From Nonlabens antarcticus (GTDB taxonomy: Bacteria > Bacteroidota > Bacteroidia > Flavobacteriales > Flavobacteriaceae), in contig NZ_JADFCO010000059.1 in NCBI RefSeq assembly GCF_015356755.1, positions 1 to 64,000 on the forward strand: a DNA stretch of 64,000 nt, written 5' to 3'. Shown here in pieces: positions 2,877 to 56,915 of the stretch. The translations under genes and the position numbers were made by a program. Below the pieces are notes generated by a model that saw only the letters and a program-made list of their open reading frames with translations, was not told the origin of the DNA and did not search any database. Numbering within the stretch: the stretch's first letter is position 1; each line of letters opens with the position of its first letter.

Positions 2877-2892
2877 CGCTTTCGCGAAAGCG
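2877..2892. repeat. Iterated palindrome copy 1, nqrC-nqrD gap
   Basis: A perfect 16-bp CGCTTTCGCGAAAGCG lies inside the only substantial gap of the nqr operon. On the mRNA it could form a 7-8 bp hairpin between the nqrC and nqrD coding regions. There is no U-run, so it is not a typical terminator. Confidence 0.9.
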
Positions 2893-2909
2893 TAATTACA
2901 AAAGCAGGT

Positions 2910-3635
2910 TTACTGCATTGCAACTTTTACGTTAGTCTTTTCTTTAAAATATGGAAGGTATCTCTGCAATCTCTCTGAGATCATATCTGTTACCCCATTA
3001 CCTGTTATTGTTGATCCAGCGATAGCGTCAACTGCATTGTCATCTTTATTATCGCCACCTTGATAGCCTTTTACTACAGACACACCGATGAAATTACCTT
3101 GTTCATCCATTATTTTTTCATCATCAAAACGCTTCTTGAACCAGCCTTGAGTAATCTCTGCACCCAGTCCAGGAGTTTCTCCTTTGTGATCAAAAACGGC
3201 ACCTTTTATCGTGTTGACATCATCTTTTAAGGCAACATAACCCCAGATGGCATCCCATAGACCTTTACCTCTCAAGGGTACGATATAATACTTTTCACCG
3301 CTTACTTCTGCAACGTAAAGTGGATAAGCCTGGTCCATTACCGGACGTTTCAATTCCTTTTTAAGATCCACGGTAAAAGCATCCACATCTGTACGCTCCT
3401 TACCCTGATCATCTAAAGCTACCTGGTCGATAATATATTTATCAAATAAGATTTGCGCAGAATCTCTAGTGGTCTCAATACCTACGGTAGCAAGAATGTT
3501 CTGCATCTTTTCTTCCTTCACATTTTTAGCTTGCGCTGGCTGCAGGTTTGTCGCTGCAAATGCAAGTGCACTAGCTACTACTGCTACCATAATGATAGCA
3601 AATAAGAATGTGTATGAGTTTGAATTTCTATCCAT
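2910..3635 (-). CDS. nqrC: Na+-translocating NADH:quinone reductase subunit C
   Basis: NqrC carries a covalently attached FMN on the periplasmic side of the membrane. The 241-aa protein has an N-terminal helix (residues 8-30) and an FMN-bind domain. The flavinylation motif is AIAGSTIT (around 204-211), where Thr209 is the expected phosphodiester-linked residue; the usual SGAT is GST here. ApbE is needed for attachment and is not in this window. It starts 3 bases after the nqrB stop. Confidence 0.97.
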   Translation of the reverse strand: MDRNSNSYTFLFAIIMVAVVASALAFAATNLQPAQAKNVKEEKMQNILATVGIETTRDSAQILFDKYIIDQVALDDQGKERTDVDAFTVDLKKELKRPVMDQAYPLYVAEVSGEKYYIVPLRGKGLWDAIWGYVALKDDVNTIKGAVFDHKGETPGLGAEITQGWFKKRFDDEKIMDEQGNFIGVSVVKGYQGGDNKDDNAVDAIAGSTITGNGVTDMISERLQRYLPYFKEKTNVKVAMQ

Positions 3636-3638
3636 TTC

Positions 3639-5024
3639 TTAAGCTGCTTGAAGTTGAGTCTTTGCTTTTTTCAATCTCTTCTTACGTTTATTCACGTTAC
3701 CCTGAATAACATAATGATCGATCGTAGGAGCAAATACGTTCAGTAAAAGAATTGCAAGCATGATACCCTCTGGATATGCCGGATTAAATACCCGAATCAT
3801 AATACCGAAGAATCCTGCTAGAATTCCGTAAATCCATTTTCCTTTTAATGTCTGTGCCGCACTTACGGGATCTGTTGCCATAAAGACAATACCAAAAGCG
3901 AAACCACCGACTACCAGATGCTGCCAGAATGGGAAGTTGAACAACTGATTCTTGCCCAGTTCGAGCAACGTTGCATCCCAACCACCTAATTCTAAAGCGG
4001 CAACGGCACCTGCATCATTCTTGATTTGCTCAAGAGTAATCTGACCGCTATTAACGAGCTCTGATACATATTCACCGCCTAGTCCACCAAAGTAATTAAA
4101 GATAAGACCCATTGCGGCACCGCCTGCAAGTCCACCAATAATAATTCTCCAGCTACCTACTTTAGTTGCTATCAAGATAAGAGCACCTATAGCGATGCAT
4201 AATGCTGATGTTTCAGAAACCGAACCTGGAATGAAACCCATGAACATGTCTGAAAAATTAAGACTGGATAGTGTCGAGGAAACCTCTGTAACAGATGAAG
4301 ATGCAAATGCAACCGCATCGCTTGCCCCACCACTAACAACACCATCAAACCTATTACTCGCCAAAGAACCCAAAATCGTTTCACCTGAAACTGCATCGGT
4401 AGAACCATTGTGCACCCATATGGCATTTCCTGACATGTATAAAGGATATGCAAAAAATGCAAACGCTCTAGCTGTCAAGGCTGGATTTAAGATGTTCATT
4501 CCCGTACCACCGAATGCTTCCTTACCAATCAATACAGCAAAAGCAACAGATAGTGCTAACATCCATAATGGAATATCCACTGGGAAAATCATAGGAATAA
4601 GCAATCCTGTAACCAGATAACCTTCATTCACTTCATGACCTCTATAGATCGCAAAGATGAACTCTATCGTCAATCCAACTACATAGGAAACAACAATAAG
4701 AGGAAGAACTAAAATAGCTCCCTCTAAAAAGGCATCCCAAAAAGGAACGTCAAAAACACTGGCTAGGCCGCGTTCCTGATATAAATATTGCGCTCCATTA
4801 TTCCACATCCCAAAAAGCAATGCAGGAACTAAAGCAAGTACAACGGTAATCATCGTACGCTTTAAATCCACCACGTCACGTATGTGCGCGCCTTTTTTGG
4901 TAGTGTGGTTTGGAGTAAATAGGAAGGTATCAAAAGCATTGATTGCCGGAGCAAACTTTTCATACTTCTCGCCAGGTTCAAAAGGTTTTCTGAGCTGGTC
5001 TAATCTGTTTCTAACCCATTTCAT
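3639..5024 (-). CDS. nqrB: Na+-translocating NADH:quinone reductase subunit B
   Basis: NqrB is the largest membrane subunit of Na+-NQR. It carries covalent FMN and riboflavin and is thought to hold the Na+ path. The 461-aa protein has a cytoplasmic N-terminus, about ten helices and the covalent-flavin motif SGET at 213-216. A larger loop (about 222-265) follows that motif and is rich in Ser/Val. The C-terminus is basic (KRKKRLKKAK). It starts 3 bases after nqrA and ends 3 bases before nqrC, so the three are probably translationally linked. Confidence 0.98.
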   Translation of the reverse strand: MKWVRNRLDQLRKPFEPGEKYEKFAPAINAFDTFLFTPNHTTKKGAHIRDVVDLKRTMITVVLALVPALLFGMWNNGAQYLYQERGLASVFDVPFWDAFLEGAILVLPLIVVSYVVGLTIEFIFAIYRGHEVNEGYLVTGLLIPMIFPVDIPLWMLALSVAFAVLIGKEAFGGTGMNILNPALTARAFAFFAYPLYMSGNAIWVHNGSTDAVSGETILGSLASNRFDGVVSGGASDAVAFASSSVTEVSSTLSSLNFSDMFMGFIPGSVSETSALCIAIGALILIATKVGSWRIIIGGLAGGAAMGLIFNYFGGLGGEYVSELVNSGQITLEQIKNDAGAVAALELGGWDATLLELGKNQLFNFPFWQHLVVGGFAFGIVFMATDPVSAAQTLKGKWIYGILAGFFGIMIRVFNPAYPEGIMLAILLLNVFAPTIDHYVIQGNVNKRKKRLKKAKTQLQAA

Positions 5025-5027
5025 AGT

Positions 5028-6371
5028 TTATCCTACTTCAGTAATCATTAAATCTAGGCCCAGGCGTATTATTTCTTGCGCCTCTAGCTTTGATGTATTT
5101 ATGTAATCCACAAGTGCAAAATCTTCTGGAGCTACTTCATAGATCCCTAGATTTTCCATTTTTTCAATATCGCCCGTCATACAGGCTTTTATAAGTTGCA
5201 TAGGATAAATATCCATAGGCAACACTTCTTCCATTTCTCCTGTAACCACTAGTGCACGTTCCTCACCGTTTAGGTTTGTGTCCACTTTACTCTTCCCACC
5301 TTTCATCCAGGAGAGGGAAGTTCCAGAAATACTTGGAATATTGTTGCGAGTAAAAGGCAACCATCCTAGTAAAGCATATTCATTTCCTTCTGGAATAAGA
5401 GTTAATGTGTTATGATAGAAATTCAAGGCTTGGTCGCTAGCGAGCTTATCTCCTGTCAAAACATCACCAGAAATTATTCTAGTTTCAGTCGTGTTTACAT
5501 TCTTAACTAAAGAAGTAACGTTAGCACCTATTATGGTTCTGTAATATTTTCTGTCAGCATCTGCTACTTCAGTTCCTGCTAGAGCGACAATACGCTCTGC
5601 TTTAAACTGACCGGTTAGAAATAAGTTACCTATAATGGCAACGTCTTCTGCTCCTAAAACCCACACTTTCTCACCAAAGTTGATCGGGTCAACGTGGTGA
5701 ACTTGTATCCCTACATTTCCAGCAGGATGCGGTCCTGAAACAGTATGAACCTCTGCATTATTGATAGAACCTAATGCTGATTTCTTACCCACACCTACAT
5801 GCACCTTACCATCGGTCAATCTGCTCAACGCGTTAACACCAGCCTGAAAAGCTTCCATTTTACCAGAAACAATAAAGTCTACATCACCAGCAAGCGGTGC
5901 CGTGGTGTAAGCCGATATGAATATGGATTTAGGAGCATCCTCTGCACTAGCGACGATATCATACGGACGCTGGATAATAAATGGCCAGCAACCGGACTCT
6001 AAGATTCTCGTTTTTACAGCAGCAGGATCAGCAGTCATAGGATCCATTTTACCAAATTCAACAAACTCATCAACAGCATCTGCCATGATACGTACCTCCA
6101 GAATGCGTCGCTTAGCACCACGCAGGATCTCTGAAATCGTACCGCTTACCGGAGCTACAAATTTCACAGGTTCATCATACTTAGAATAGAAAATAACTTC
6201 TCCAGCCTTGACGCGAGCGCCTTCTTTGAGAACCATTTTAGGCACGACAGCATGAAAGTCTAACGGTTTGATAGCGTATATACTGGATCGAGGAGCGTCG
6301 ACAATCGATTTGTCTGCCTCGCCTTTGAGCTTGAGATTAAGCCCTTTTTTAACTCTAATGTCTTTTGACAT
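5028..6371 (-). CDS. nqrA: Na+-translocating NADH:quinone reductase subunit A
   Basis: NqrA is the peripheral cytoplasmic subunit of Na+-NQR and the first gene of the operon. The 447-aa protein begins MSKDIRVKKGLNLKLKGEA, the usual family start. An in-frame ATG 36 bases upstream is possible but would sit on the promoter (-7 element at 6405-6412), so 6371 is preferred. The N-terminal part has the barrel-sandwich fold region (VKAGEVIFYSKYDEPVKFVAPVSGTI, about 55-85). The C-terminal region matches the family throughout. Confidence 0.97.
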   Translation of the reverse strand: MSKDIRVKKGLNLKLKGEADKSIVDAPRSSIYAIKPLDFHAVVPKMVLKEGARVKAGEVIFYSKYDEPVKFVAPVSGTISEILRGAKRRILEVRIMADAVDEFVEFGKMDPMTADPAAVKTRILESGCWPFIIQRPYDIVASAEDAPKSIFISAYTTAPLAGDVDFIVSGKMEAFQAGVNALSRLTDGKVHVGVGKKSALGSINNAEVHTVSGPHPAGNVGIQVHHVDPINFGEKVWVLGAEDVAIIGNLFLTGQFKAERIVALAGTEVADADRKYYRTIIGANVTSLVKNVNTTETRIISGDVLTGDKLASDQALNFYHNTLTLIPEGNEYALLGWLPFTRNNIPSISGTSLSWMKGGKSKVDTNLNGEERALVVTGEMEEVLPMDIYPMQLIKACMTGDIEKMENLGIYEVAPEDFALVDYINTSKLEAQEIIRLGLDLMITEVG

Positions 6372-6404
6372 AGGATAAGTGGATTTAGTCCTTTTTTGAG
6401 AGTG

Positions 6405-6412
6405 CAAATTTA
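6405..6412 (-). promoter_or_regulatory. Probable -7 promoter element of nqr operon
   Basis: Read on the minus strand this is TAAATTTG, a full match to the Bacteroidota -7 consensus TAnnTTTG, 34 bases before the nqrA start at 6371. No clear -33 TTTG was seen at the usual spacing. It supports the shorter nqrA start. Confidence 0.5.
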
Positions 6413-6554
6413 GACAATATTGACCTCATTAATTAGGACCTTTTTTTATTTAGACACCTTCTAAATAGATGTTGAAATTCGCTTTGGCATTGCTTTCGCT
6501 CCGCAGACTTAGATTCCTTTTTTCTAGTACCTTTATCTTTCAGAATAGCACTTT

Positions 6555-7811
6555 ATGAAGTCGTATTTTATTTTAATCATTACAGTTGTAATATGTTCCG
6601 CTTTCGCGAAAGCACAAGAGTTGGAAGATCTGGTAAATGATCCTGATTATATAAAAACAGTAACCTTTAACAAGCCACCTGAAAACATGCTCCCGATCTT
6701 TAAAATGGGAGAACGCATTAATTTAAGCTTTGATGACGTGATAGGTGATGAAGCAAACTACTATTACCAGATTGCCCATTATGACTACAACTGGACACCT
6801 AGTGCGCTTTTTAAAAATGAATTTTTAGAAGGTATAGACGATCGTCGCATTCTAAATTATCGCAATTCGTTTACAACCTTACAGTCGTACTCTCATTATG
6901 AGATTTCCATTCCTAACCAGTTTATATCTGGATTGACAAAAAGCGGAAATTATATGATCCACATCTATGACGATAAAAGAGAGCTCGTATTCTCTAGAAA
7001 ATTTATGGTCATAGAAAATCAGGCAGTTGTAGGTGTGGAAGTAAAAAGAGCGCGAGATTTAAAGTATGTACAGACACAACAACGTGTGGAGTTTAATGTT
7101 GATTCTAAGACGATCAATTTTATTGACCCTAACAATAATTTGAAAGTGACTATTCTTCAAAATTCCGATTTGAATAGCGCTATCTATGAGATCAAGCCAC
7201 AGTTTAACTTGGGCAACAATCAGGTTTACAATTATGATGGTCCTACTTCTTTCTGGGCAGGAAATGAATACCTCAACTTTGAAAACAGGGATTTTAGATC
7301 CCCTACTAATAAAATTAATTATGTGCGACTGGATAAATTATACAATTCCTACTTGTTTGTAGATCAATCCAGAGTACCGCAAGAATATACCTATAATCCT
7401 GACATTAACGGAAACTTCCTAGTAACCACCCTTAATAACGAGGACAACGCCATCCAGGCCGAGTATCTTAATGTTCACTTTAAACTAGATCCACTACAAA
7501 TTCTACCTAAAAATTCCAGTCTTTATGTTATCGGAAATTTTAATGGTTATCAATTTCAAGAGGAAAATCAAATGAAATATGATATTGCTTCTAATTTGTA
7601 TGAAACTTCCATCCTACTCAAGCAAGGTTTCTATAATTACAAATATGTACTAGTTGATGCTAATGGCATTGAAATACCAGGCGCCATTAGTGGTAACAAA
7701 TGGCAAACCGAAAATGAATATACTGTTCTTGCTTACTATAGGAAGCCTGGTGGGAGGTATGATCGATTGATAGGAATAGGAGCTGGCAACAGTGTAAACA
7801 TATCCAATTAA
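6555..7811 (+). CDS. Type IX secretion system Plug protein (DUF5103)
   Basis: The 418-aa secreted protein matches the DUF5103 family, which includes Plug, the periplasmic cap of the SprA translocon in Flavobacterium T9SS. The signal peptide ends SAFAKA-Q around residue 20. Its c-region is encoded by a copy of the iterated palindrome at 6599-6614. The body has the typical start (TVTFNKPPENMLPIFKMGERINLSFDD) and a C-terminal immunoglobulin-like part (LYVIGNFNGYQ ... GFYNYKYVLVD). It is divergent from nqrA. The family is clear; the Plug role is inferred from homologues. Confidence 0.88.
   Translation: MKSYFILIITVVICSAFAKAQELEDLVNDPDYIKTVTFNKPPENMLPIFKMGERINLSFDDVIGDEANYYYQIAHYDYNWTPSALFKNEFLEGIDDRRILNYRNSFTTLQSYSHYEISIPNQFISGLTKSGNYMIHIYDDKRELVFSRKFMVIENQAVVGVEVKRARDLKYVQTQQRVEFNVDSKTINFIDPNNNLKVTILQNSDLNSAIYEIKPQFNLGNNQVYNYDGPTSFWAGNEYLNFENRDFRSPTNKINYVRLDKLYNSYLFVDQSRVPQEYTYNPDINGNFLVTTLNNEDNAIQAEYLNVHFKLDPLQILPKNSSLYVIGNFNGYQFQEENQMKYDIASNLYETSILLKQGFYNYKYVLVDANGIEIPGAISGNKWQTENEYTVLAYYRKPGGRYDRLIGIGAGNSVNISN
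6599..6614. repeat. Iterated palindrome copy 2, in Plug signal peptide
   Basis: GCTTTCGCGAAAGC with flanks C and A is read as Ala-Phe-Ala-Lys-Ala in the signal-peptide c-region of the DUF5103 gene. The Ala-Lys-Ala just before Gln provides the Ala-X-Ala signal-peptidase site. Confidence 0.95.
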
Positions 7812-7838
7812 TTATATTTGGTCGATTATCCATCGATC

Positions 7839-9429: not shown

Positions 9430-9445
9430 CGCTTTCGCGAAAGCG
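9430..9445. repeat. Iterated palindrome copy 3, apaG-pruA gap
   Basis: A perfect CGCTTTCGCGAAAGCG lies in the 220-bp gap between apaG and pruA, about 65 bases past the apaG stop. No T-run follows. Confidence 0.9.
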
Positions 9446-12848: not shown

Positions 12849-13508
12849 CTACAACGGCACATGCACCACTTTCTTAGTCTCAAAAAAAGGATCGTCAAAA
12901 ACCTCATCAAGTTCATAGACTTGAGCATATTTGAAGGGCTTGAGCTCTTCTCGCAAGTCGCCTCCTTTTAAGTATAGGATTCCGTTTTCTATCTCGTGGT
13001 AGCTGTCCTTGCGTACTTTGTTGCGGGTCCAGCTGACGAAATCGGTCATGTTAGTGACCGCTCTAGAGACGATAAAATCAAATCTGCCTTTTACTTTTTC
13101 AGCCCGGCCGTGTTCTGTAGTAACATTTTCTAATCCCAGAGCCTCAACGACGGCATCAACGACTTTCAGTTTTTTTGCGATAGAGTCGACGAGATGAAAA
13201 TGGGTTTTGGGGAACATGATAGCGAGAGGGATTCCAGGGAAGCCACCGCCAGTTCCTACATCAAGTACACGAGTTCCTCCAGGTGTGTTGGGTAAGCTTT
13301 CGCGAAAGCGAACCACGCTCACAATTCCCAACGAGTGAAGAATATGTCTGACGTACAAATGATCAATATCCTTACGAGAAATCACGTTGATCTGGGAGTT
13401 CCACTCGCGGTACAATTCTCCCAATTGGGCAAATTGCTGTTCCTGTTGAGCGGTAATGTGTGGAAAGTGGGCTTTGATGATATCAGACACTGTCAATAGT
13501 TTGTGCAA
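12849..13508 (-). CDS. rsmG: 16S rRNA (guanine-527-N7)-methyltransferase
   Basis: RsmG methylates G527 of 16S rRNA using SAM; its loss gives low-level streptomycin resistance in several bacteria. The 219-aa product has the SAM motif VLDVGTGGGFPGIPLA at 81-96 and the family segments EWNSQINVISRKD (35-47) and FDFIVSRAVTNM. Residues 67-71 (RFRES) are encoded by a copy of the iterated palindrome. The start MHKLLTVSDIIKAHFP is reasonable. A truncated second copy of its 3' end lies 1.5 kb away. Confidence 0.96.
   Translation of the reverse strand: MHKLLTVSDIIKAHFPHITAQQEQQFAQLGELYREWNSQINVISRKDIDHLYVRHILHSLGIVSVVRFRESLPNTPGGTRVLDVGTGGGFPGIPLAIMFPKTHFHLVDSIAKKLKVVDAVVEALGLENVTTEHGRAEKVKGRFDFIVSRAVTNMTDFVSWTRNKVRKDSYHEIENGILYLKGGDLREELKPFKYAQVYELDEVFDDPFFETKKVVHVPL
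13295..13310. repeat. Iterated palindrome copy 4, inside rsmG
   Basis: AGCTTTCGCGAAAGCG on the plus strand is read on the minus strand as CGC TTT CGC GAA AGC, Arg-Phe-Arg-Glu-Ser, within rsmG. The first base differs from the commonest 16-mer but the inner 14-mer is exact. Confidence 0.95.
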
Positions 13509-14791: not shown

Positions 14792-14807
14792 CGCTTTCGC
14801 GAAAGTA
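14792..14807. repeat. Iterated palindrome copy 5 (near-copy)
   Basis: CGCTTTCGCGAAAGTA keeps 13 of the 14 core bases (final C is T). It directly abuts the heptamer tandem repeat that starts at 14808. Confidence 0.75.
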
Positions 14808-18254: not shown

Positions 18255-18286
18255 GGGAATTTCGCTTTCGCGAAAGCGAAATTCCC
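18255..18286. repeat. Iterated palindrome copy 6, extended to 32 bp
   Basis: The 16-bp CGCTTTCGCGAAAGCG (18263-18278) is embedded in a 32-bp perfect palindrome whose arms extend to GGGAATTT on the left and its complement on the right. It lies between the divergent trkA and ubiE genes, just upstream of the ubiE promoter. It is the longest perfect version in the window. Confidence 0.95.
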
Positions 18287-23068: not shown

Positions 23069-23096
23069 ATAACGATAACACCTCTCATAATTTGCT

Positions 23097-23104
23097 TACT
23101 TTTG
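23097..23104 (+). promoter_or_regulatory. Probable -7 element of fbaA
   Basis: TACTTTTG is a full TAnnTTTG match, 20 bases before the chosen fbaA ATG at 23125. It argues against the earlier in-frame start at 23092. Confidence 0.5.
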
Positions 23105-23124
23105 TGAGTGAAAGATCTATCCTT

Positions 23125-24192
23125 ATGAGTCATAACATCAAACCAGGCGTTGCTACTGGAAACCAAGTTCAAGAGATATTCAATCATGCCAAAGCTAATG
23201 GCTATGCACTTCCAGCGGTAAACGTTGTAGGTTCTAACACGGTGAATGCCGTGATGGAAACAGCGGCAGAACTTAATTCTCCCGTCATTATCCAGTTCTC
23301 AAACGGTGGTTGTGTTTTCAATGCAGGCAAAGGATTGAGTAATGAAAACCAACGTGCCGCAATTTTAGGTGGTATTGCTGGAGCCCAGCATATTCACACA
23401 CTCGCAAAAGCATATGGTGCGACGGTAATCCTACATACAGATCATTGCGCAAAACCATTGTTGCCTTGGATTGATGGTTTATTAGATGCTAGTGAAGCAC
23501 GCTTTCGCGAAAGCGGAACAAGTCTCTATTCCTCGCACATGATAGATTTGAGTGAAGAACCTCTAGAGGAGAACATTGAAATTTGTAAACGATACCTGGA
23601 GCGCATGTCTAAAATGGACATGACCCTAGAAATCGAACTGGGAATTACTGGTGGTGAGGAAGATGGTGTGGACAATAGCGACGTTGATGAGTCAAAATTA
23701 TACACGCAACCGGAAGAAGTCGCTTATGCTTATGAAGAATTAAAAAAAGTAAGTGATCGCTTTACTATTGCAGCAGCTTTTGGTAATGTTCACGGAGTTT
23801 ACAAGCCCGGAAATGTAAAATTAACTCCTAAGATTTTAAAGAACTCTCAGGAATATGTGACTAAGAAATACGGTGTTGAACATAATCATATCGATTTTGT
23901 ATTCCACGGTGGTTCTGGTTCTTCTCTAGAAGAAATACGAGAAGCGATAGGTTACGGAGTCATAAAAATGAACATTGATACAGATCTTCAATGGGCATTT
24001 GCAGATGGTATCAAGAAATACATGGACAGCAATGATGACTTCCTAAAATCCCAAATAGGAAATTCTACCGGTGCAGATTCACCTAATAAAAAATACTATG
24101 ATCCTCGCAAATGGTTGCGCGAGGGAGAAGAATCATTCAAGGCTCGTTTGAAGCAGGCCTTTGAGGATTTGAACAATGTAGGGACACTATAA
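23125..24192 (+). CDS. fbaA: Class II fructose-bisphosphate aldolase
   Basis: A Zn2+-dependent aldolase cleaving fructose-1,6-bisphosphate to dihydroxyacetone phosphate and glyceraldehyde-3-phosphate. The 355-aa product has HTDHCAK (104-110, metal and catalytic Asp region), the ELGITGGEEDGVDNS loop, VHGVYKPGNV and the phosphate loop HGGSGSS. This is the long E. coli-like class IIA form. The start MSHNIKPGV matches family practice. Residues 126-130 (RFRES) are encoded by the iterated palindrome. Confidence 0.97.
   Translation: MSHNIKPGVATGNQVQEIFNHAKANGYALPAVNVVGSNTVNAVMETAAELNSPVIIQFSNGGCVFNAGKGLSNENQRAAILGGIAGAQHIHTLAKAYGATVILHTDHCAKPLLPWIDGLLDASEARFRESGTSLYSSHMIDLSEEPLEENIEICKRYLERMSKMDMTLEIELGITGGEEDGVDNSDVDESKLYTQPEEVAYAYEELKKVSDRFTIAAAFGNVHGVYKPGNVKLTPKILKNSQEYVTKKYGVEHNHIDFVFHGGSGSSLEEIREAIGYGVIKMNIDTDLQWAFADGIKKYMDSNDDFLKSQIGNSTGADSPNKKYYDPRKWLREGEESFKARLKQAFEDLNNVGTL
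23500..23515. repeat. Iterated palindrome copy 7, inside fbaA
   Basis: A perfect CGCTTTCGCGAAAGCG in frame as CGC TTT CGC GAA AGC, Arg-Phe-Arg-Glu-Ser, in a surface segment after the HTDHC motif. Confidence 0.95.
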
Positions 24193-29246: not shown

Positions 29247-29262
29247 CGCTTTCGCGAAAGCG
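29247..29262. repeat. Iterated palindrome copy 8, rpsO-pnp gap
   Basis: A perfect CGCTTTCGCGAAAGCG between rpsO and pnp, about 90 bases after the rpsO terminator. Confidence 0.9.
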
Positions 29263-31712: not shown

Positions 31713-31728
31713 CGCTTTCGCGAAAGCT
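31713..31728. repeat. Iterated palindrome copy 9, after pnp
   Basis: CGCTTTCGCGAAAGCT lies 21 bases after the pnp stop and 9 bases before a conventional terminator. The inner 14-mer is exact. Confidence 0.9.
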
Positions 31729-34179: not shown

Positions 34180-34195
34180 CGCTTTCGCGAAAGCG
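34180..34195. repeat. Iterated palindrome copy 10, yefM upstream
   Basis: A perfect CGCTTTCGCGAAAGCG between the yefM operator and the small membrane protein gene. Confidence 0.9.
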
Positions 34196-38307: not shown

Positions 38308-38323
38308 CGCTTTCGCGAAAGCG
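38308..38323. repeat. Iterated palindrome copy 11, SDR upstream
   Basis: A perfect CGCTTTCGCGAAAGCG in the gap between the SDR gene and the Fe-S membrane protein gene. Confidence 0.9.
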
Positions 38324-41686: not shown

Positions 41687-41882
41687 ATGATTTGTGTCTA
41701 ATTGAAGGTTCTTTTACAACTCTTAAAACTACAACATCGAAATAAAACAAATATGACAGAAATAGGATGATTCAAAATTCCCGTTTCTTATAATATTATT
41801 CCTCCTTTATAGCCGATTCAAACCCGTTACATGGCGTGATTGTTGCAAATATTAATTACACATTCATGTGCAAAACATTATT

Positions 41883-42599
41883 ATGACAATTAAAAATACA
41901 ATTCTTATCGTGCTGTTGGTAGGTTTTTCCGCTTTCGCGAAAGCGCAATTATCATCATTCTCAACATCCACCAAAGCGGTTTTAAACACCTACGTTACAA
42001 ACGGTCAAGTGGATTATGCGGCCATCAAAAAAAATCCAAAAGATTTACAGGTCGCCCTTGAATCGCTTAAAAAAATAGACATCGAGAAACTGAGCAATGA
42101 TGAATGTAAAGCGTTATTAATCAACGCCTACAATCTCTTTGTCATCAAAGGTGTTGTGGATGTATACCCGGTAAAATCAGTGATGGATCAAAAGGATTTT
42201 TTTGATGTGAAGGCGTTTGATTTAGGAACTCAAAAAGTTTCTCTGAACCAACTGGAAAAAGAAATCCTTTTCAAAAGATTCCCTGATGAACGTCTACATT
42301 TTGCACTGGTTTGTGGAGCAATAAGCTGTCCACCATTGACCGCAAAACCATTCACTGCTGAAAATGTTGACTTCATGCTTAAAAAATTAACCAAAGCTGC
42401 CATCAATAACCCAGCGATAGTGCAACTGGATATGCATGAGAAAAAAGCGATGGTTTCAAAAATATTTGACTGGTATAATGCAGACTTCACTAAAAAAGAG
42501 AACTTGAGTGCTTACATTAATCGTTACGGTGAGAACACCATTCCGGCAGGATTTAAAATAGGTTACATGAATTATGACTGGAGCCTGAACGGGAAATAG
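41883..42599 (+). CDS. Secreted DUF547 protein
   Basis: A 238-aa DUF547 protein, exported. The signal peptide (TILIVLLVGFSAFAKA-Q, cleavage near 21) has its c-region encoded by the iterated palindrome. Family blocks are INAYNLFVIKGVVDVYPVKS, HFALVCGAISCPPL and the YMNYDWSLN C-terminus. The start at ATG 41883 is preferred to a GTG 15 bases upstream. DUF547 has no defined activity. A paralogue (48669-49445) lies 6 kb away in the TIGR04282/04283 operon. Confidence 0.88.
   Translation: MTIKNTILIVLLVGFSAFAKAQLSSFSTSTKAVLNTYVTNGQVDYAAIKKNPKDLQVALESLKKIDIEKLSNDECKALLINAYNLFVIKGVVDVYPVKSVMDQKDFFDVKAFDLGTQKVSLNQLEKEILFKRFPDERLHFALVCGAISCPPLTAKPFTAENVDFMLKKLTKAAINNPAIVQLDMHEKKAMVSKIFDWYNADFTKKENLSAYINRYGENTIPAGFKIGYMNYDWSLNGK
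41930..41945. repeat. Iterated palindrome copy 12, in DUF547 signal peptide
   Basis: A perfect CGCTTTCGCGAAAGCG read as Ala-Phe-Ala-Lys-Ala just before the signal-peptidase site, exactly as in the Plug gene at 6599. Confidence 0.95.
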
Positions 42600-42821: not shown

Positions 42822-43201
42822 TTGACATCAATGAAGTTATCGATGGGCATTCTCGTATTGTAAAAGCTACAGGTGGAGCAGATGGTCTACGTGATCAAGG
42901 TGCTCTTGAGTCTGCGATCAGCAGACCATTTGCAACATTTGATGGTATAGATTTGTATACAAATATTTATGAAAAAGCTGCTGCAATCTTAGAAAGCATT
43001 TTGATAAACCATCCATTTATTGACGGTAACAAACGCACTGGCTGGGCATTAATGCGTTCCTTATTGCTAAGCGAAAAACTACAGATTAGTGCACAAGAAA
43101 ATGCCAAATACAACTTCACAATTCAAGTAGCAGAAGGAAAACTTAATACGGACCAGATAAGCGCATGGATTAGAAGCAATTCCGCTAGTATCGATGAATA
43201 G
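42818..43201 (+). CDS. doc: Doc-family (Fic fold) toxin
   Basis: Death-on-curing toxins modify EF-Tu, in the phage P1 case by phosphorylation. The 127-aa protein has the Fic/Doc motif HPFIDGNKRTGWA (about 67-79) and the N-terminal GGADGLRDQGALESAISRP block. It overlaps the antitoxin by 4 bases and the next lipoprotein gene starts 7 bases after its stop, so transcription probably continues. The match is clear. Confidence 0.9.
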   Translation: MIDINEVIDGHSRIVKATGGADGLRDQGALESAISRPFATFDGIDLYTNIYEKAAAILESILINHPFIDGNKRTGWALMRSLLLSEKLQISAQENAKYNFTIQVAEGKLNTDQISAWIRSNSASIDE

Positions 43202-43208
43202 TAGGTTT

Positions 43209-44222
43209 ATGAAACTTTTCAGCGGTCTTTTTTTTACAGCGATTCTCCTCATTTCTTGTAATGCACAAGTAGAAAAACCGGCCATTCCCGAAATGATAAA
43301 AGGCATTTCATTTGTCGCAACACGGGATTCCATCACACCAGAAGTTGTAAACCCCATCAAAAATTATAATGCTAATTATGTCGCAGTGCATCCCTATGCC
43401 TTCATGCGCAATCTGGAAAACCCATCAATTATACACAATAGTGACCGTCAGTGGTGGGGCGAGCGCATTGATGGCACAAAACACACCATCGATATTTTCC
43501 ATGAAAACGGATTGAAAGTGATGCTCAAGCCGCAACTGTGGATAGGTAGAGGAATTTATACAGGAACCATGATCTTGCCAGACGCTGCAAGATGGGACAC
43601 TCTGGAAACTACCTACGAAAAGTTTATCCTCGACTATGCGCAAGTCGCCCAAGAAACAAATGCTGATCTATTTTGCATAGGAACAGAACTGGAATCTTTC
43701 GTTATTGCGAGGCCAAAGTATTGGAATGCGCTCATTCTGAAAATTCGTGAGATTTATAAAGGCAAACTTACCTATGCAGGTAACTGGGACAGTTATAAAG
43801 TCGTTCCATTTTGGGATCAAATGGATTACATAGGCATCGATGCCTATTTTCCCGTAAGCGATCAAAAAGCTCCAGATTTGATGACAACGAAAAATGGTTG
43901 GAAAAAGTGGAAAGCCGAGTTAAGTTCGCTTTCGCGAAAGCATGATAAGAAGATTCTTTTTGCAGAATACGGTTATGTAAGTGCAGATTATGCAGGAAAG
44001 GAACCGTGGGCAACCGCAGACGAAACTCGAAGCGTAAACAACAAAGCACAGCAAATATTATTACAGGCGCAATACGAAAGCATCTGGAAAGAAGACTGGT
44101 TTGCTGGTGGGTTCCTATGGAAACATCATGCGGAATCCAGCCGTCGCGGTTATGCAAAACGATTCACACCACAAGGAAAACCAGCAGAAAAAACAGTTAC
44201 TGAAGCATATGGAAAATATTAA
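43209..44222 (+). CDS. GH113-like lipoprotein
   Basis: A 337-aa TIM-barrel glycoside hydrolase-like lipoprotein. The lipobox LISC-N is at about residues 14-18 (MKLFSGLFFTAILLISC). Barrel blocks resemble family 113 (beta-mannanase-like): MIKGISFVA, VHPYAF, GLKVMLKPQLWI, FCIGTELESF (candidate acid/base Glu) and ILFAEYGYVS (candidate nucleophile Glu). An alternative ATG at 43194 is equally possible. The substrate is not known. Residues encoded at 43927-43942 are LSRK from the iterated palindrome. It directly follows the toxin gene. Confidence 0.75.
   Translation: MKLFSGLFFTAILLISCNAQVEKPAIPEMIKGISFVATRDSITPEVVNPIKNYNANYVAVHPYAFMRNLENPSIIHNSDRQWWGERIDGTKHTIDIFHENGLKVMLKPQLWIGRGIYTGTMILPDAARWDTLETTYEKFILDYAQVAQETNADLFCIGTELESFVIARPKYWNALILKIREIYKGKLTYAGNWDSYKVVPFWDQMDYIGIDAYFPVSDQKAPDLMTTKNGWKKWKAELSSLSRKHDKKILFAEYGYVSADYAGKEPWATADETRSVNNKAQQILLQAQYESIWKEDWFAGGFLWKHHAESSRRGYAKRFTPQGKPAEKTVTEAYGKY
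43927..43942. repeat. Iterated palindrome copy 13, inside GH113-like gene
   Basis: CGCTTTCGCGAAAGCA in the third possible frame, TCG CTT TCG CGA AAG, Ser-Leu-Ser-Arg-Lys. This is the only copy in this frame in the window. Confidence 0.95.
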
Positions 44223-48668: not shown

Positions 48669-49445
48669 TTATTGTTTGTTAAGTGACCAGTCGTAATCTT
48701 TGTATTCGATGGTTGCACCTTCATTGATTTTTTTATCAGCATACTGATTGATATACTTTATCACAGTTCCAGAGTGAGCTTCAAAATCCTTAGGATAGAA
48801 ACTAAAAATGCTGCTTAATTTTGGGTTGTTAGGATCGCTTAAATCATTCTTGTCAGAGTTTATGAATTCGTCCGCAGCTTGTTTCATCAAATCGTCGACG
48901 TTCTCACCGGTGTAGGCAGTTTTCATTAATTTAGGACAAGAAAAACTAGCACAATTAATTGCAAAATGTATTCTAGGATCGCCCATCTTTTGAAGTACTC
49001 CCTTCTCAATATCGGCTAGGGAATAGTCCTTACCATCAACGACTATAAAATTCTTAATCCACACCTGTCCAAAAGGCCCTTTGATGTCCTGAATGCTTCC
49101 CGGCATATCATTATCAATGATTATATCAAGCGTTGACGCGTTGTAAAGATTGATGTAATAGGCAAATTGTTCCCCAGTTTCCCAGTCAGCTTTTGGTTGA
49201 TTTACACTTAAGTAAACCAGGTAGGATTTCAATGCTGCTTGCTCTTCAGCTAGTCCTTCATAATCTACAAATCCGGCTTCATTTACATATTTATTCAAGA
49301 GCGCGTCAAAATTAGAATGATCGAGTTGTGACCTACTGGTCTCAATTTTTTCACCTTTAGTAAGTTGATCATAATGTAATCCACCAGATCCTACACAAGA
49401 TGCGGCAATAAACAGAACGGCTAATAAATATGCAATTTTTTTCAT
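48669..49445 (-). CDS. DUF547 lipoprotein
   Basis: A 258-aa DUF547 protein starting MKKIAYLLAVLFIAASC, with a lipobox AASC near residue 17, so it is probably lipid-anchored. Family blocks are YYINLYNASTLDIIIDNDMPGSI, HFAINCASFSCPKL and a C-terminus YKDYDWSLNKQ. A frame start 42 bases upstream is rejected; the palindrome at 49453-49468 lies in that leader. It is paralogous to 41883-42599. Its partner enzymes suggest sugar-nucleotide metabolism but no role is established. Confidence 0.87.
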   Translation of the reverse strand: MKKIAYLLAVLFIAASCVGSGGLHYDQLTKGEKIETSRSQLDHSNFDALLNKYVNEAGFVDYEGLAEEQAALKSYLVYLSVNQPKADWETGEQFAYYINLYNASTLDIIIDNDMPGSIQDIKGPFGQVWIKNFIVVDGKDYSLADIEKGVLQKMGDPRIHFAINCASFSCPKLMKTAYTGENVDDLMKQAADEFINSDKNDLSDPNNPKLSSIFSFYPKDFEAHSGTVIKYINQYADKKINEGATIEYKDYDWSLNKQ

Positions 49446-49452
49446 GGGAGTT

Positions 49453-49468
49453 CGCTTTCGCGAAAGCG
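49453..49468. repeat. Iterated palindrome copy 14, DUF547 leader
   Basis: A perfect CGCTTTCGCGAAAGCG starting 8 bases upstream of the DUF547 lipoprotein ATG, so it could form a hairpin at or near its ribosome binding region. Confidence 0.9.
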
Positions 49469-49547
49469 GAATCGTTACCGCTTTCATTGTACATGTAATC
49501 TACGGGAACGCAATAGTTATGGTTTTAAGATTAACAGTAGAATAACA

Positions 49548-51082: not shown

Positions 51083-51208
51083 ATGATAAGCGATGAACAC
51101 AAAATTAAGAATCGTATTGCGATGCTGACTCGAGTTTGTGGTCAATTGAAAAACATCGATATTTCACTTGAATTTAATACGACTTTGAGCATTTTGACAT
51201 CTTACTGA
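51083..51208 (+). pseudogene. Possible CsoR-like repressor remnant
   Basis: A 41-codon frame reads MISDEHKIKNRIAMLTRVCGQLKN and ends after LSILTSY. The I-K-N-R-I ... G-Q-L pattern resembles the first helix of CsoR/FrmR metal-sensing repressors. The rest of that roughly 85-aa fold is missing, including the usual Cys-His-Cys ligands. It may be a chance match or a decayed metal sensor. It is the only coding-like piece in the 264-bp gap upstream of the TIGR04282 operon. Confidence 0.3.
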
Positions 51209-51233
51209 AAATAGGTAGAAAGATAGAAACAAC

Positions 51234-51803: not shown

Positions 51804-51815
51804 GCCGTGAATTGC

Positions 51816-52694
51816 ATGTCAAACAAATCTAAGCATTTCCTGCTGCAGGCCTGCAAAATACTTGTGATCTTATCCTGTTTGAGCTATTTGGGCTGGCAGT
51901 TGAGACTGGAGAAATTCAACTGGAACGCGGTAAATATATTTTTATCAGACTTGCCCACCTCTCTTTATTTTTTGCTGCCGTTACTATCTATTTTAAGTTG
52001 GTTTGTCGAAAGTTACAAGTGGAAACTTTTAGTTCAGGATTTGAGAAGTTTACGCTTTCGCGAAAGCGTGATTCAAAACTTTACCGCACAAGCCGCAAGT
52101 TTTATCACACCTCTTAAAGCCGGCGAATTTGCTGCGAAAGCTTTTTATTTCCCCTATAATATTCGTAAAAAAGTATTGAAAGCCGTGCTTGTGGGGAATT
52201 TAAGTCAAATGGCCGTCACGGTTATTCTAGGTACTGCAGGAATTGCCTTACTTATTGAAATACAATTCATTGCGACGGTCATTATTGCAGGAGGCGCCGG
52301 GTTGGTCATATTGTTATCTCGCTCGATCTTCCAATGGTTTGATTATCGCGGTGCTAATATTGCTACAATTACAGGAATTTCCTTTTTTAGATACGTGATT
52401 TTTTCAAGTTGCTGGATTCTGGTTTTACTGACGATTTCAAACGTATCCATTTTACTGATTCTGGGTTCCATTACTGCAATGTATTTAGCGGCATCAATCG
52501 TACCCACGATACAGCTGTTTGACGTATTTCTCAAATGGAGCATTGCTTCTTTTTTTGTAGGCTACCTTGACATTTCCCTAGAAAGTATGACGGCTATCGT
52601 GGCCATCATCTGGTTAAATAATACCGTACTGCCAGTTTTATTAGGGTGTATCCTGCTAGCCTTTCAACGGTTTCCTAATGTAGCAACTGTATGA
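51816..52694 (+). CDS. LPG-synthase-TM/flippase-like membrane protein
   Basis: A 292-aa membrane protein of the lysylphosphatidylglycerol-synthase TM/UPF0104 type, with about seven helices. The family block is SFITPLKAGEFAAKAFYF (~89-106), in a domain often found beside glycosyltransferases. The start ATG 51816 is preferred to GTG 51807. Its stop overlaps the glycosyltransferase start by 4 bases (ATGA), so they are coupled. RFRES (~77-81) is encoded by the palindrome. Confidence 0.8.
   Translation: MSNKSKHFLLQACKILVILSCLSYLGWQLRLEKFNWNAVNIFLSDLPTSLYFLLPLLSILSWFVESYKWKLLVQDLRSLRFRESVIQNFTAQAASFITPLKAGEFAAKAFYFPYNIRKKVLKAVLVGNLSQMAVTVILGTAGIALLIEIQFIATVIIAGGAGLVILLSRSIFQWFDYRGANIATITGISFFRYVIFSSCWILVLLTISNVSILLILGSITAMYLAASIVPTIQLFDVFLKWSIASFFVGYLDISLESMTAIVAIIWLNNTVLPVLLGCILLAFQRFPNVATV
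52053..52068. repeat. Iterated palindrome copy 15, inside flippase-like gene
   Basis: A perfect CGCTTTCGCGAAAGCG in frame as Arg-Phe-Arg-Glu-Ser in a cytoplasmic loop, the third RFRES case after rsmG and fbaA. Confidence 0.95.
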
Positions 52695-53836: not shown

Positions 53837-54320
53837 GTTGTACAACTACTGGGACTAAGTAAGAAGATGCCACGGGAACACCTTGTTTTAAAGCACTATC
53901 AATTTTAGGCAAATCCACTAGTTTACTATTTAAGGTAGAATCCATAAACGTGCGGTCTAGGTGATTTGCACAATAAGCAATGCTATCGTAGCGTATTTGA
54001 CCTTTATCAGTCACAGTAAATACTGCCACGAGGCTGTCTTTTTGCTTAATCTCCATATTTAAGGTATCAGTTGACAGCCTTGTTTGAATCAGCTCATGCA
54101 TTCTCGCATAAAAACAATCTGATGTTGTTTCCAGTTCATCGCAGTCTACAAATTGTGGAAAAACATCAACGCTTTTTGTATCTAGATTTTTGAATCGATC
54201 CATTGCTTGTGTCGTCGCCTCATCATTCTTCTGCGTCTCTGTTTTACAGGAATTGAGAAGTAGTAAACTTATGATAGCTAGAAATAATCGCACAATAGAT
54301 ATGTTCTGGAAGATTCTCAT
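53811..54320 (-). CDS. Hypothetical lipoprotein
   Basis: A 169-aa protein with a lipobox (LLLNSC-K, ~20-25) and a mature part rich in Asp/Thr/Lys. It has no recognised family. A C-terminal block SALKQGVPVASSYLVPVVV looks like the end of a TonB-like or secretin-like short domain, but this is not proven. It is coupled to the TPR gene by a one-base TAATG overlap. Confidence 0.6.
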   Translation of the reverse strand: MRIFQNISIVRLFLAIISLLLLNSCKTETQKNDEATTQAMDRFKNLDTKSVDVFPQFVDCDELETTSDCFYARMHELIQTRLSTDTLNMEIKQKDSLVAVFTVTDKGQIRYDSIAYCANHLDRTFMDSTLNSKLVDLPKIDSALKQGVPVASSYLVPVVVQPINAHSDQ

Positions 54321-55471
54321 TAATTACTCTCGCTCATAAATAATTCTTTTTTCAAATCACTGATTCTGAAAGTGACCAGCTCTCCATAACTGCTTGATTC
54401 TCCAAATTTATTCAAATAACGCTCATAATAACCTATGATGGCTTTCTTATCCTTAAAGTATCTATCCGCAGCCACAGCAAACTGATAAGCGATGACCGCA
54501 TCTTCAGCATTTTCTTCATAAGCAAGCTTCATGGCATCAAAGGTGCCCTTATAATCTTCCTGCGCTGCCTTAATGGATGCCAGTTGCAAATATTCTTGAT
54601 CAATTGCAGGCCGCCTGAATAAAATACAATATTCAATGGCATCTAGAGCTTTATCATATTCCTTGAGCCTCAAATGTGCTCTAGATTTCATAAAGTATAT
54701 ATCTGCGTCCCTTTCTTGATACTGTTTTAAAAAGATGTCAAAATTTTCAATCGCTTTTTGCCATTGAGCGTCTTCAAAATAGGCCAGTCCCAGTGTCTTG
54801 CGGTTAAACTCCGTATCATTATTGATCTCAAATAAGTGTTCAAGATGTTCAATCGCTTTAGAATAAATTTTTGCACTGTAAAAAGCCTGGGCGATCAAAC
54901 TATTGAACTTAATATCATCTGGGTTTTCATTTAGTACTTCTTGGGAATATTTTATAGCTGGAAAGGTCTTTCGCTTTTTAATTAACAATGCCACCAGTTC
55001 CATCCGGGCGCTGCGATAATCAGGATTTAGTTTTAGAACATTACCGTAAATCTCCATCGCTTTCTCGTCAGATTTTAAAAGTTCCAAAATTTGACCTTTA
55101 TAAAATTGATAGGTCGCATTTTCTGGAAACTCTTCTACCAATTGATTGAAAAGAGAGAAGGAATTTATAGGATCGTTAGTGCTCAAATGCAGTCGCGCAA
55201 GATCAAATCGAGGTTTCACAGCAGTAGAATCTTCTTTCAAACCTATCTGGTAGGCAGTCATCGCTTTTGTGGTATTACCGGTGACTGTATAGGCTTTGGC
55301 CAACTTGAACTGTAGATTAGGAGTCAGCTCTGATGCTTTGTAAGCAACAATTGCGTTACTATAATCTCCTATTTCCATAAGACTGTCTCCCACTCTTTCC
55401 TGTGCAGAAACGGAAACTATCGCTACTAAAAAAAAGCTAATGACCATTAGATTGTTAAACATGTATCGCAT
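54320..55471 (-). CDS. Periplasmic TPR protein
   Basis: A 383-aa protein with a signal peptide (FFLVAIVSVSAQ, cleavage near 23). It has eight or so tetratricopeptide repeats, for example YSNAIVAYKASEL (~36-48), LNPDYRSARMELVALLIKKRKTFPAI and YDKALDAIEYCI. It is likely a scaffold for envelope complexes. The lipoprotein at 53811 follows with TAATG overlap, so the two may interact. Confidence 0.8.
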   Translation of the reverse strand: MRYMFNNLMVISFFLVAIVSVSAQERVGDSLMEIGDYSNAIVAYKASELTPNLQFKLAKAYTVTGNTTKAMTAYQIGLKEDSTAVKPRFDLARLHLSTNDPINSFSLFNQLVEEFPENATYQFYKGQILELLKSDEKAMEIYGNVLKLNPDYRSARMELVALLIKKRKTFPAIKYSQEVLNENPDDIKFNSLIAQAFYSAKIYSKAIEHLEHLFEINNDTEFNRKTLGLAYFEDAQWQKAIENFDIFLKQYQERDADIYFMKSRAHLRLKEYDKALDAIEYCILFRRPAIDQEYLQLASIKAAQEDYKGTFDAMKLAYEENAEDAVIAYQFAVAADRYFKDKKAIIGYYERYLNKFGESSSYGELVTFRISDLKKELFMSESN

Positions 55472-55516
55472 TTTTAGGCATAATTATTGAAAACTAAACT
55501 AACTAAATTAATCATT

Positions 55517-56059
55517 ATGAAAAAGATACTACTACTTCTCGTGATAGCCGCAGGATTTACCGCTTGTGAAGGCGATCAAGGACCACCAGGAATACCTGGT
55601 GCAGATGGTGCTAATGGTGCAAACGACCGCGCTCAATCGTTCAATACAACCATTAACTTTAGTGCACCCGATTATTCACAACTAGTGCGTTATCCAGAAA
55701 GTATCGACGTTTTTCCTGGAGATATGACATTAGTTTACATAAGATTTGAACAAGTTCCTGGAAACAATGGCGGCCAGGTTGATGTTTATAGATTATTACC
55801 ACAAACTTTGTACACAGATTTTGGTGAATTTCAATATAATTATGACTTCACAAACGGAGATGCCACCATCTTTTTAACGGGTCCTGATTCTACAGATTTT
55901 AACAATCTAACTACAGCAGATTTAGACAATCAGCAGTTTAGAATTGTTATATTACCCGTAGAACTTGTTAGTAGCTCTACAGTTGATGTTACAGATTACC
56001 AAGCTGTTATGGAACTGGCGGATTTAAGTGCAGCTGATGTTATAGAGATCCAAAACTAA
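55517..56059 (+). CDS. Lipoprotein with collagen-like repeats
   Basis: A 180-aa lipoprotein starting MKKILLLLVIAAGFTAC-E. After the lipobox there are six Gly-X-Y triplets (GDQ GPP GIP GAD GAN GAN), a short collagen-like stalk. A beta-rich Asp/Thr-rich domain follows, ending SAADVIEIQN. Collagen-like lipoproteins of this type occur widely in Bacteroidota; the role is unknown. It converges on the HAD phosphatase gene and its terminator lies inside that gene's 3' end. Confidence 0.8.
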   Translation: MKKILLLLVIAAGFTACEGDQGPPGIPGADGANGANDRAQSFNTTINFSAPDYSQLVRYPESIDVFPGDMTLVYIRFEQVPGNNGGQVDVYRLLPQTLYTDFGEFQYNYDFTNGDATIFLTGPDSTDFNNLTTADLDNQQFRIVILPVELVSSSTVDVTDYQAVMELADLSAADVIEIQN

Positions 56060-56075
56060 AATCTCAAATTTTTAC

Positions 56076-56915
56076 CTAAGAAAGCGGCTCAACAGAGTCG
56101 CTTTTTTTATGCGTCATGTTTTCTTCCAGCCAGGTCGCAACACCGTCTTTCTTATGATGTCCTGCTGTGTAACGAGCGGCACTGCGCACCTGTTCCTTAC
56201 CATTCTCAACCGCAACACCGTACCCTACTCCAGCAAGCATTTCGATATCGTTATAATTATCGCCAAAAGCTGCGACGCTCGACATATTAATTTCTGGGTA
56301 TCGCTTTTTCAAAAGAATTTCTAATGCTGATTTTTTTGAGATCCCTTTAGGTGATATTTCTGTATAGGAATCTTTTGACCGGTATAAATGGAGCACTGAG
56401 GCTGATAACTCTTCCGCTTTCGCGAAAGCGGAATCCATTTTATCCTTATTGCCCATAAACATGATTTTATGCGCACCGCCTTGTTCTATAGTTTTCTCAA
56501 AATAAGCCAAAGAGGTCGACAAGGATTGCACGGTAGGCTGTGTGCGAGTATTATGAATCTCGCGGGCCGTCCATTCATCATGCTGCTCTACAAACCATTC
56601 TTGATTCCTATAAAGACTCACGTGCAAACTGTTTTCAACGCCTATTTTAACCATTTGATGGATCAATGCCAGGTCGATGCTTTCTGTGTGTAGCACCTCA
56701 TTATTGTGTAAAACAAGTGCACCGTTGTAGCAAATAAGCGGTGAATTCTGAATATTTAATGCGTCTTGCAGATAATACATCGCTTGCGGCATGCGTGCAG
56801 ATATCAATATTTTAGGAATGTTGAGGTTATTAAAAACCCGGGCAGTATTGCTAGAGATAAATCGATTGTCATCGAGCAATGTTCCATCAATGTCTGTAGC
56901 TATAAGTTGTATCAT
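56076..56915 (-). CDS. Cof-type HAD-IIB phosphatase
   Basis: A 279-aa HAD phosphatase. The nucleophile and acid/base pair is Asp8/Asp10 in IATDIDGTLLDDN, then ILISARMP and CYNGALV in the cap region. The closing GDNYNDIEMLAGVGYGVAVENG (~214-235) holds the metal Asp. It acts on small phosphorylated metabolites (sugar or flavin phosphates); the substrate is unknown. AFAKAEEL (~162-169) is encoded by the palindrome. Its last codons overlap the neighbouring terminator. Confidence 0.92.
   Translation of the reverse strand: MIQLIATDIDGTLLDDNRFISSNTARVFNNLNIPKILISARMPQAMYYLQDALNIQNSPLICYNGALVLHNNEVLHTESIDLALIHQMVKIGVENSLHVSLYRNQEWFVEQHDEWTAREIHNTRTQPTVQSLSTSLAYFEKTIEQGGAHKIMFMGNKDKMDSAFAKAEELSASVLHLYRSKDSYTEISPKGISKKSALEILLKKRYPEINMSSVAAFGDNYNDIEMLAGVGYGVAVENGKEQVRSAARYTAGHHKKDGVATWLEENMTHKKSDSVEPLS
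56079..56107 (+). terminator. Terminator within the HAD gene 3' end
   Basis: AAGCG-CTC and their complement GAG-CGCTT pair around ACA/ACAG, then seven T. The stem lies in codons SDSVEPL of the convergent HAD gene. It serves the collagen-like lipoprotein gene, whose stop is at 56059. Confidence 0.7.
56412..56433. repeat. Iterated palindrome copy 16, extended to 22 bp
   Basis: The 16-bp CGCTTTCGCGAAAGCG is extended by TTC on the left and GAA on the right to a 22-bp perfect palindrome inside the HAD gene, read as Ala-Phe-Ala-Lys-Ala. It is the last copy before 64,000. Confidence 0.95.

Follow-up and report, generated by a model that had tools for sequence, protein, structure and literature searches.

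The window analysed here, a stretch of 64,000 nucleotides from Nonlabens antarcticus (assembly GCF_015356755.1, contig NZ_JADFCO010000059.1, positions 1 to 64,000), carries a flavobacterial set of genes including Nqr, a type IX secretion plug protein and SusC/RagA, and its PNPase shares 90-92% identity with three Nonlabens records. Scattered over it is a palindromic 14-mer, GCTTTCGCGAAAGC, present in fifteen exact copies and one copy with a single mismatch (GCTTTCGCGAAAGT); eleven of the sixteen sites form the 16-mer CGCTTTCGCGAAAGCG, and two lie in perfect palindromes of 22 and 32 bp. All sixteen sites were already contained in the original prediction, made from the DNA letters alone, together with the observation that most copies extend to the 16-mer, and only the start positions needed shifting by one base to the right. 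Its division into nine intergenic and seven genic copies has to be changed to eight and eight with the open reading frames (ORFs) used here, where the site at 13296 falls in an unverified frame.

Table 1. Copies of the palindromic word in the 64,000 nucleotide window
Word	Position	Location	Remarks
GCTTTCGCGAAAGC	2878..2891	between ORF 2116-2814 and nqrC 2910-3635	16-bp palindrome
GCTTTCGCGAAAGC	6600..6613	in ORF 6555-7811 (type IX secretion plug protein)	reads AFAKA near N terminus
GCTTTCGCGAAAGC	9431..9444	intergenic	16-bp palindrome
GCTTTCGCGAAAGC	13296..13309	in ORF 12849-13508 (-), putative gene call	reads RFRES
GCTTTCGCGAAAGT (one mismatch)	14793..14806	intergenic	
GCTTTCGCGAAAGC	18264..18277	divergent intergenic	inside 32-bp perfect palindrome
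GCTTTCGCGAAAGC	23501..23514	in ORF 23092-24192 (class II fructose-bisphosphate aldolase)	reads RFRES
GCTTTCGCGAAAGC	29248..29261	upstream of pnp	
GCTTTCGCGAAAGC	31714..31727	intergenic, just 3' of pnp	
GCTTTCGCGAAAGC	34181..34194	intergenic	16-bp palindrome
GCTTTCGCGAAAGC	38309..38322	intergenic	18-bp palindrome
GCTTTCGCGAAAGC	41931..41944	in ORF 41868-42599	reads AFAKA
GCTTTCGCGAAAGC	43928..43941	in ORF 43194-44222	reads SLSRK
GCTTTCGCGAAAGC	49454..49467	in ORF 48669-49487 (-)	reads PLSRK at residue 7; start used may be too early
GCTTTCGCGAAAGC	52054..52067	in ORF 51807-52694	reads RFRES; 18-bp palindrome
GCTTTCGCGAAAGC	56416..56429	in ORF 56076-56915 (-)	reads AFAKA; 22-bp palindrome

The palindrome is a real, highly iterated word, and its description as neither mobile nor a terminator fits. 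One hundred dinucleotide shuffles of the window gave, with up to two mismatches allowed, a mean of 0.09 matches and a maximum of one. Over all 3,270,668 bases of the genome (66 contigs) there are 611 exact copies, about one per 5.4 kb, of which 480 are the full 16-mer, against about 0.005 copies expected from base composition alone and no copy of the reversed control word. The abundance claimed from the window therefore holds for the genome, and of the two outcomes named as counting against the claim neither is the case: the frequency is far over expectation, and the copies are spread over the genome, not restricted to one region by a mobile element. A set of 858 kb from several Nonlabens genomes yielded 211 copies without mismatch, 25 with one and 13 with two, while for 60 shuffled palindromes of identical composition the averages were 0, 0.15 and 3.75. 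No paper containing the 14-mer was found in a literature search whose coverage left out most subscription journals.

In 88% of the Nonlabens copies the word is directly bordered by C (by G at the opposite end), with a weaker preference for T at -3 and -4, and the preference dies out a few bases from the word. The three carriers outside Nonlabens described below (genomes G250, G234 and a Dokdonia-labelled genome) have similar outer preferences, although G234 (59%) and the Dokdonia-labelled genome (60%) show a weaker outer C. Inverted half-sites occur 141 times at a spacing of 2 bp and not more than once at every other spacing from 0 to 12 bp. Outside the 14-mer the core TCGCGA was observed 90 times, with 81 expected; longer sub-words are over-represented outside the exact word (TTTCGCGAAA, 16 versus 0.7; GCTTTCGC, 27 versus 4.8), which is the pattern that near-miss copies would give. 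From this composition the word appears to be read as one whole rigid unit. Each strand of every 14-mer copy also contains GCGAAAGC, which may form an unusually stable DNA mini-hairpin.

All 23 Nonlabens genomes, including that of the window, carry between 288 and 857 copies. In a family sample of 397 genomes from 237 genera (four of them Nonlabens) the word was present in 80 genomes and absent from 317; the only rich genomes other than Nonlabens were G250 (857 copies) and G234 (408 copies), and 74 others had 1-19 copies. Among single genomes, the Dokdonia-labelled one has 570 copies, a Leeuwenhoekiella-labelled one 26 and a Spongiivirga-labelled one none. In a phylum sample of 395 genomes, searched for the 16-mer, the count was high only in the window's genome, and ten others had 1-2 copies. 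Like an uptake signal, the word is specific to a genus or subclade, yet three further genomes, each apart from the others, have it too. A PNPase tree puts the carriers at four distinct places; this is a single-gene tree made with a quick method in which long branches make the placement of G234 and Nonlabens unsure, and the distribution could reflect either one old origin followed by losses or several gains. With as many as two mismatches allowed, the Leeuwenhoekiella-labelled genome contains 105 sites compared to 23 for the control; 18 of its 22 inspected exact sites are in open frames and four between them, and one lies in DNA resembling contig C58 of the window's genome. A look for alternate words in 76 named loci of site-poor genera showed that, apart from those made of A/T only, palindromes of 10-14 bp never occur four or more times, and that a few 10-mers occur three times; since each of these loci spans at most about 22 kb, a sparse alternate word could be missed. 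In a viral collection the word is present in at least 120 stretches, and 76 of the 80 listed have a single copy. The viral stretch IMGVR_UViG_2617271332_000001 (L192) has three copies in 11 kb and encodes a 720 amino acid protein without a Pfam match at the threshold used.

The comparison of positions in related genomes, which had been proposed along with the original prediction, was performed with the pnp region (at most 20 kb) of 20 further Nonlabens genomes. Out of 2100 possible pairs (105 sites in 20 genomes), 661 could be mapped by alignments spanning the site and 497 by the flanks alone; the unmapped pairs lie outside the stretch, are unalignable or, in the flank-only mapping, have the opposite orientation. 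The spanning criterion favours conserved sites, and the flank-only mapping, in which the word is left out, was used to counter this bias. All 14 letters are kept in 624 of the 661 pairs (94.4%), whereas random flanking 14-mers are unchanged in 12.5%; flank-only mapping gave 456 exact pairs out of 497. At a flank identity of 70-80% the word is exact in 95% of pairs versus 2.5-7.7% for random 14-mers, and at 65-70% in 65% versus 1.2%. For pairs with a flank identity of 85% or less, the per-base identity is 97.8% in the word and 79.8% in the far flanks, with the drop within 1-2 bases of the edge, and the spectrum of mismatches includes a single mismatch in only two of the 661 pairs.

Three clean pairs with and without the word are free of indels within it; 5-7 substitutions separate their members, some of which alter amino acids. 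These pairs are not polarised and could stand for gain or loss. The aldolase gene of genome G020 has the word with two mismatches, which looks like a loss since the word is intact in all nine site-bearing orthologues compared. In a single indel case the copy in G004, compared with G008, is interrupted by an insertion of 21 bp (L103 versus L104 at 13192), and several further non-exact pairs are poorly alignable intergenic DNA, uninformative on origin. Five other loci (L028, L262, L266, L268 and L274) contain a palindrome of related appearance, CCTGCCTGCCGGCAGGCAGG.

Sites of the other carriers with a gene counterpart in Nonlabens were at the same place in five out of twelve cases, corresponding to four distinct positions, the numbers being small. 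These are the position upstream of pnp, which has the word in the Dokdonia-labelled locus and in all 20 other Nonlabens genomes fetched; the same codons of one gene, presumably D-aminoacyl-tRNA deacylase-like, in the Dokdonia-labelled genome, G250 and all three covering Nonlabens rows; one intergenic region in G250 and six of seven rows from Nonlabens; and, in G234 and one Nonlabens row, the spacer that separates an rpoB-like from an rpoC-like gene, both identified by their size and order. The remaining seven are not exactly recurrent, and one of them is about 150 bp or less from a Nonlabens site.

Counted over the window plus 21 samples of 20 kb from the complete genome G020, 78 sites (62%) lie in ORFs and 47 between them; as 91% of the bases are in ORFs, this is a 4.4-fold intergenic excess. 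The genic copies use all three reading frames, giving AFAKA in 42 cases, RFRES or CFRES in 17 and xLSRK in 19. The coefficient of variation (CV) of the spacing is below chance in the window (0.31 versus 0.91), in G020 (0.53 versus 0.89) and in G250 (0.54 versus 0.95). Close neighbours are rare: G020 has two gaps below 1 kb compared to 23.1 in simulations, and among listed positions gaps below 1.5 kb number 2 of 45 in the window's genome (10-11.5 expected from an exponential model), 4 of 60 in G004 (20.6), 6 of 70 in G234 (13.7) and 3 of 99 in G813 (15.5). The 21 G020 samples contain 1-9 sites each, all have the word, and no clear trend towards origin or terminus is visible, so that an over-representation near the terminus, as considered in the original prediction, was not seen in this one genome.

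Among the listed positions of the window's own genome, the widest interval is a 53-kb stretch of contig C58 (about 45.6-98.9 kb, loci L299-L301) without the word. It encodes TraG and an integrase, and also PglZ, BrxC, an Eco57I-type methylase and helicase genes, these with the aspect of a BREX-like defence, and is apparently an incoming conjugative element. Conversely, many of the low counts elsewhere are due to clustered copies. Nine genomes, each of a different genus, share islands that are similar in blastn (L082-L086, L088-L090, L092-L094 and L098) and in which some positions of the word coincide. In four of them two copies lie 933 bp from each other within a 405 amino acid frame, and in L083 this frame encodes an outer-membrane efflux protein. 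This profiled island carries genes for copper and metal handling (RND pump, outer-membrane efflux, multicopper oxidase and P-type ATPases), and proteins from two other clusters include a histidine kinase, a mannosyltransferase-like protein, DUF3570 and a DsbD-like protein.

Retention of the word is weaker on such DNA. Over 18 cluster loci in 12 genomes poor in sites, the word is exact in 118 of 214 mapped pairs and has one mismatch in 29, as compared to 624 and two of 661 in Nonlabens. The exact share is 56% in the islands at 70-75% flank identity and 40% at 75-80%, versus 95% in both classes in Nonlabens; above 80% the island shares converge on those of Nonlabens (75-100% in island loci). This weaker retention in site-poor hosts suggests that a host factor probably keeps the word sharp. 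The simplest reading would be that something in the carrier cells maintains it and that copies decay without it, transfer of the islands out of carriers being assumed.

Very probably, then, the word is a recognition site maintained by a host factor, and this factor would be a trans-acting protein. As to its function, we read it as a genome-wide recognition site of a sequence-specific system binding double-stranded DNA, most likely a palindromic site of the uptake-signal type, a reading to which we give not quite an even chance. According to this proposal a symmetric, probably dimeric, protein would read CGCTTTCGCGAAAGCG as a single rigid unit, and the word would serve the recognition of self DNA in natural transformation. 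Copies would be born by point substitution wherever the protein or the intergenic sequence permits and would be kept by a working system, in which DNA with one copy per few kb is preferentially taken up or used. An extra copy beside an existing one would add little, which could explain the spacing, and after loss of the system the copies would decay. More tentatively still, we propose a palindromic uptake word with a symmetric receptor, inherited or acquired in apparently four separate flavobacterial lineages, lost and decaying elsewhere and exported on islands, those for copper resistance included, where it would erode. We know of no palindromic self-DNA uptake sequence described before in Bacteroidota. 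Uptake or self-recognition was absent from the original prediction; it fits no worse than chromosome organisation or recombination, both of which the prediction did name.

The closest likeness is to the uptake signal sequences (USS) of Pasteurellaceae and the DNA uptake sequences (DUS) of Neisseriaceae, which share with the word hundreds of copies in and between genes and an intergenic excess, as well as origin by substitution, long stability of sites, and sporadic loss and decay; the even spacing reported for them has a parallel in some of the carriers only. PMC1626085 describes USS as arising by substitution, with single sites that stay stable for long and are sporadically lost or weakened, and PMC1939737 reports even spacing and 65% of the sites in ORFs for H. 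influenzae. Differences are that the word is a perfect palindrome of 14-16 bp, that it is found in Bacteroidota, and that its Nonlabens orthologues have nearly no single mismatches. Relatives from the wider group can be naturally competent: Riemerella columbina is described as preferring its own DNA, with no proven signal in that account, and F. johnsoniae as not competent under the same conditions (PMC7965970). For R. anatipestifer an uptake route is described that involves ComEC and DprA along with outer-membrane proteins whose role is not known (PMC8459023).

Several points weigh against an uptake signal. Even spacing is not shared by all genomes: in G234 the evenness is not significant (CV 0.67 versus 0.91, 0.088 of simulations being as low) and a late stretch is without neighbour avoidance (3 of 13 gaps below 1.5 kb, 2.4 expected); G813 is uneven (CV 1.15), only its short gaps being scarce; and the listed part of the window's genome has a CV of 1.30 including the empty 53-kb stretch, and 0.36 on contigs C55-C57. 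The orthologue pairs are interrelated and not independent, and most of the possible pairs are unmapped. Eroded island copies are still kept far over random flanks (55% versus 9.5%). For a rigid 16-bp palindrome, a dimeric protein inside the cell would be the expected reader. Among the families checked for a cognate protein (PF00145, PF01555, ParB_N and ComEC) none was found, and no receptor was identified; the ComEC family is present in 13 of 13 carriers, yet also in 21 of the 22 other genomes of the panel (34 of 35 overall). No report of competence in Nonlabens came up, although no search was aimed at it. Known uptake sequences are described as non-palindromic, as less even than compaction needs and, in N. 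gonorrhoeae, as having 35% of their copies in ORFs (PMC1939737), and their cores are given as 9-10 bp (PMC1626085).

The word could instead be the binding site of an intracellular protein for chromosome organisation, replication or repair, such as a nucleoid protein, an anchor or a loader, placed about once per 4-5 kb for coverage; this is a close rival, to which we give a slightly smaller chance than to uptake. A rigid palindromic unit suits a dimeric intracellular regulator, and near-invariance at fixed positions, scarcity of close neighbours, intergenic enrichment, the lack of a clear regional bias in one genome and the recurrence of five of the twelve comparable sites at the same place in Nonlabens are all in its favour. 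On the other side, the Spongiivirga-labelled genome without any copy is a close relative of the Dokdonia-labelled carrier, so the function would be dispensable. ParB_N is present in 30 of 30 genomes, with extra copies in three of 12 carriers and four of 18 non-carriers, and there is no carrier-specific paralogue of the ParB type. In the window's genome, besides the 298 amino acid ParB, ParB_N also occurs in frames of 602 and 616 amino acids (G000:C60:5491-5769 and G000:C66:20190-20468). The parS, Noc and matS sites are palindromes read by dimeric proteins. The likeness of the word to them would lie in the palindromic site and dimeric reader, and the differences in its hundreds of copies, without clear regional bias and without a carrier-specific extra ParB. 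No protein is known to have this target. For comparison with these sites TTTCACGTGAAA was searched and is absent from the nine stretches checked. An autoregulated cognate gene, sought at the closest listed site pairs of G813, G234, G004 and G020, gave no candidate, the unannotated genes showing unlike ORF layouts.

A methylation mark is unlikely. In this explanation, an orphan DNA methyltransferase together with mismatch repair would create and keep the word, as in the highly iterated palindromes of the HIP1 type with which the original prediction had compared it. The comparison is right in kind: HIP1 (GCGATCGC) and its alternates are described as over-represented palindromes, in coding and intergenic DNA and uneven among related genomes (PMC4390886). 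In contrast to HIP1, the word is longer, sparser (HIP1-type palindromes occur about once per kb) and scarce in close neighbours, and its short core, which stays near expectation outside the 14-mer, is not in excess; it is neither GCGATCGC nor a GC-rich alternate of 5-8 bp, the unit being rigid at 14-16 bp. Targets of type II methylases are shorter than that. In a panel of 30 genomes the C5 methylase family PF00145 is missing in six of 12 carriers (five of ten Nonlabens, including the window's, and G234) and the N4/N6 methylase family PF01555 in five of 12 (four of ten Nonlabens and G250), so neither family searched provides a conserved partner and the suggested methylation marking is not supported by these two, the D12, Eco57I and type I families not having been searched. 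Two N4/N6 methylase matches are present in the window's genome, at G000:C59:101519-102367, about 37 kb past the window, and at G000:C63:6733-7287.

Still less probable is a Chi-like site for recombination or exonuclease control, usable from either side by its palindromic nature. Known Chi sites are short and non-palindromic, and strict symmetry over 14-16 bp would be unexpected for a signal read on a single strand. The copy number, near the 1008 copies of E. coli Chi (PMC1939737), and the presence of the word in all 21 G020 samples together with its absence from the stretch with conjugation genes would agree with such a function.

We regard repeated insertion of a short mobile palindromic element, of the repetitive extragenic palindromic or miniature inverted-repeat transposable type, as highly improbable and reject it, for repetition and the 22-32 bp extended palindromes at some sites are opposed by flank preferences fading within a few bases, the use of three reading frames, positional stability and three presence/absence pairs differing by substitutions without indels in the word. 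The same observations bear out the earlier statement that the copies are not transposon ends. Terminators had likewise been set aside, which fits; the flanks downstream of the word are A-rich and not U-rich. A function as hairpin or in RNA was also rejected, since the palindrome extension of coding sites is without covariation (offsets 1-10 at or below expectation or at most 0.03 above it); in intergenic sites the extension covaries modestly (0.51 versus 0.37 at offset 2).

Hundreds of conserved copies imply an active sequence-specific process acting across the whole chromosome. Should uptake be correct, the word would provide a testable self-recognition signal where preference for own DNA has lacked a proven one; should a chromosomal protein be correct, it would point to an unrecognised organiser. 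In either case the word can be used as bait for finding the protein and as a tracer of DNA once resident in these hosts.

Upstream of pnp, a different 16-bp palindrome, GATATCTTAAGATATC, is present in one copy in one Nonlabens and ten named loci of other flavobacteria (L032, L033, L038, L045, L054, L067, L073, L076, L077, L079 and L116).

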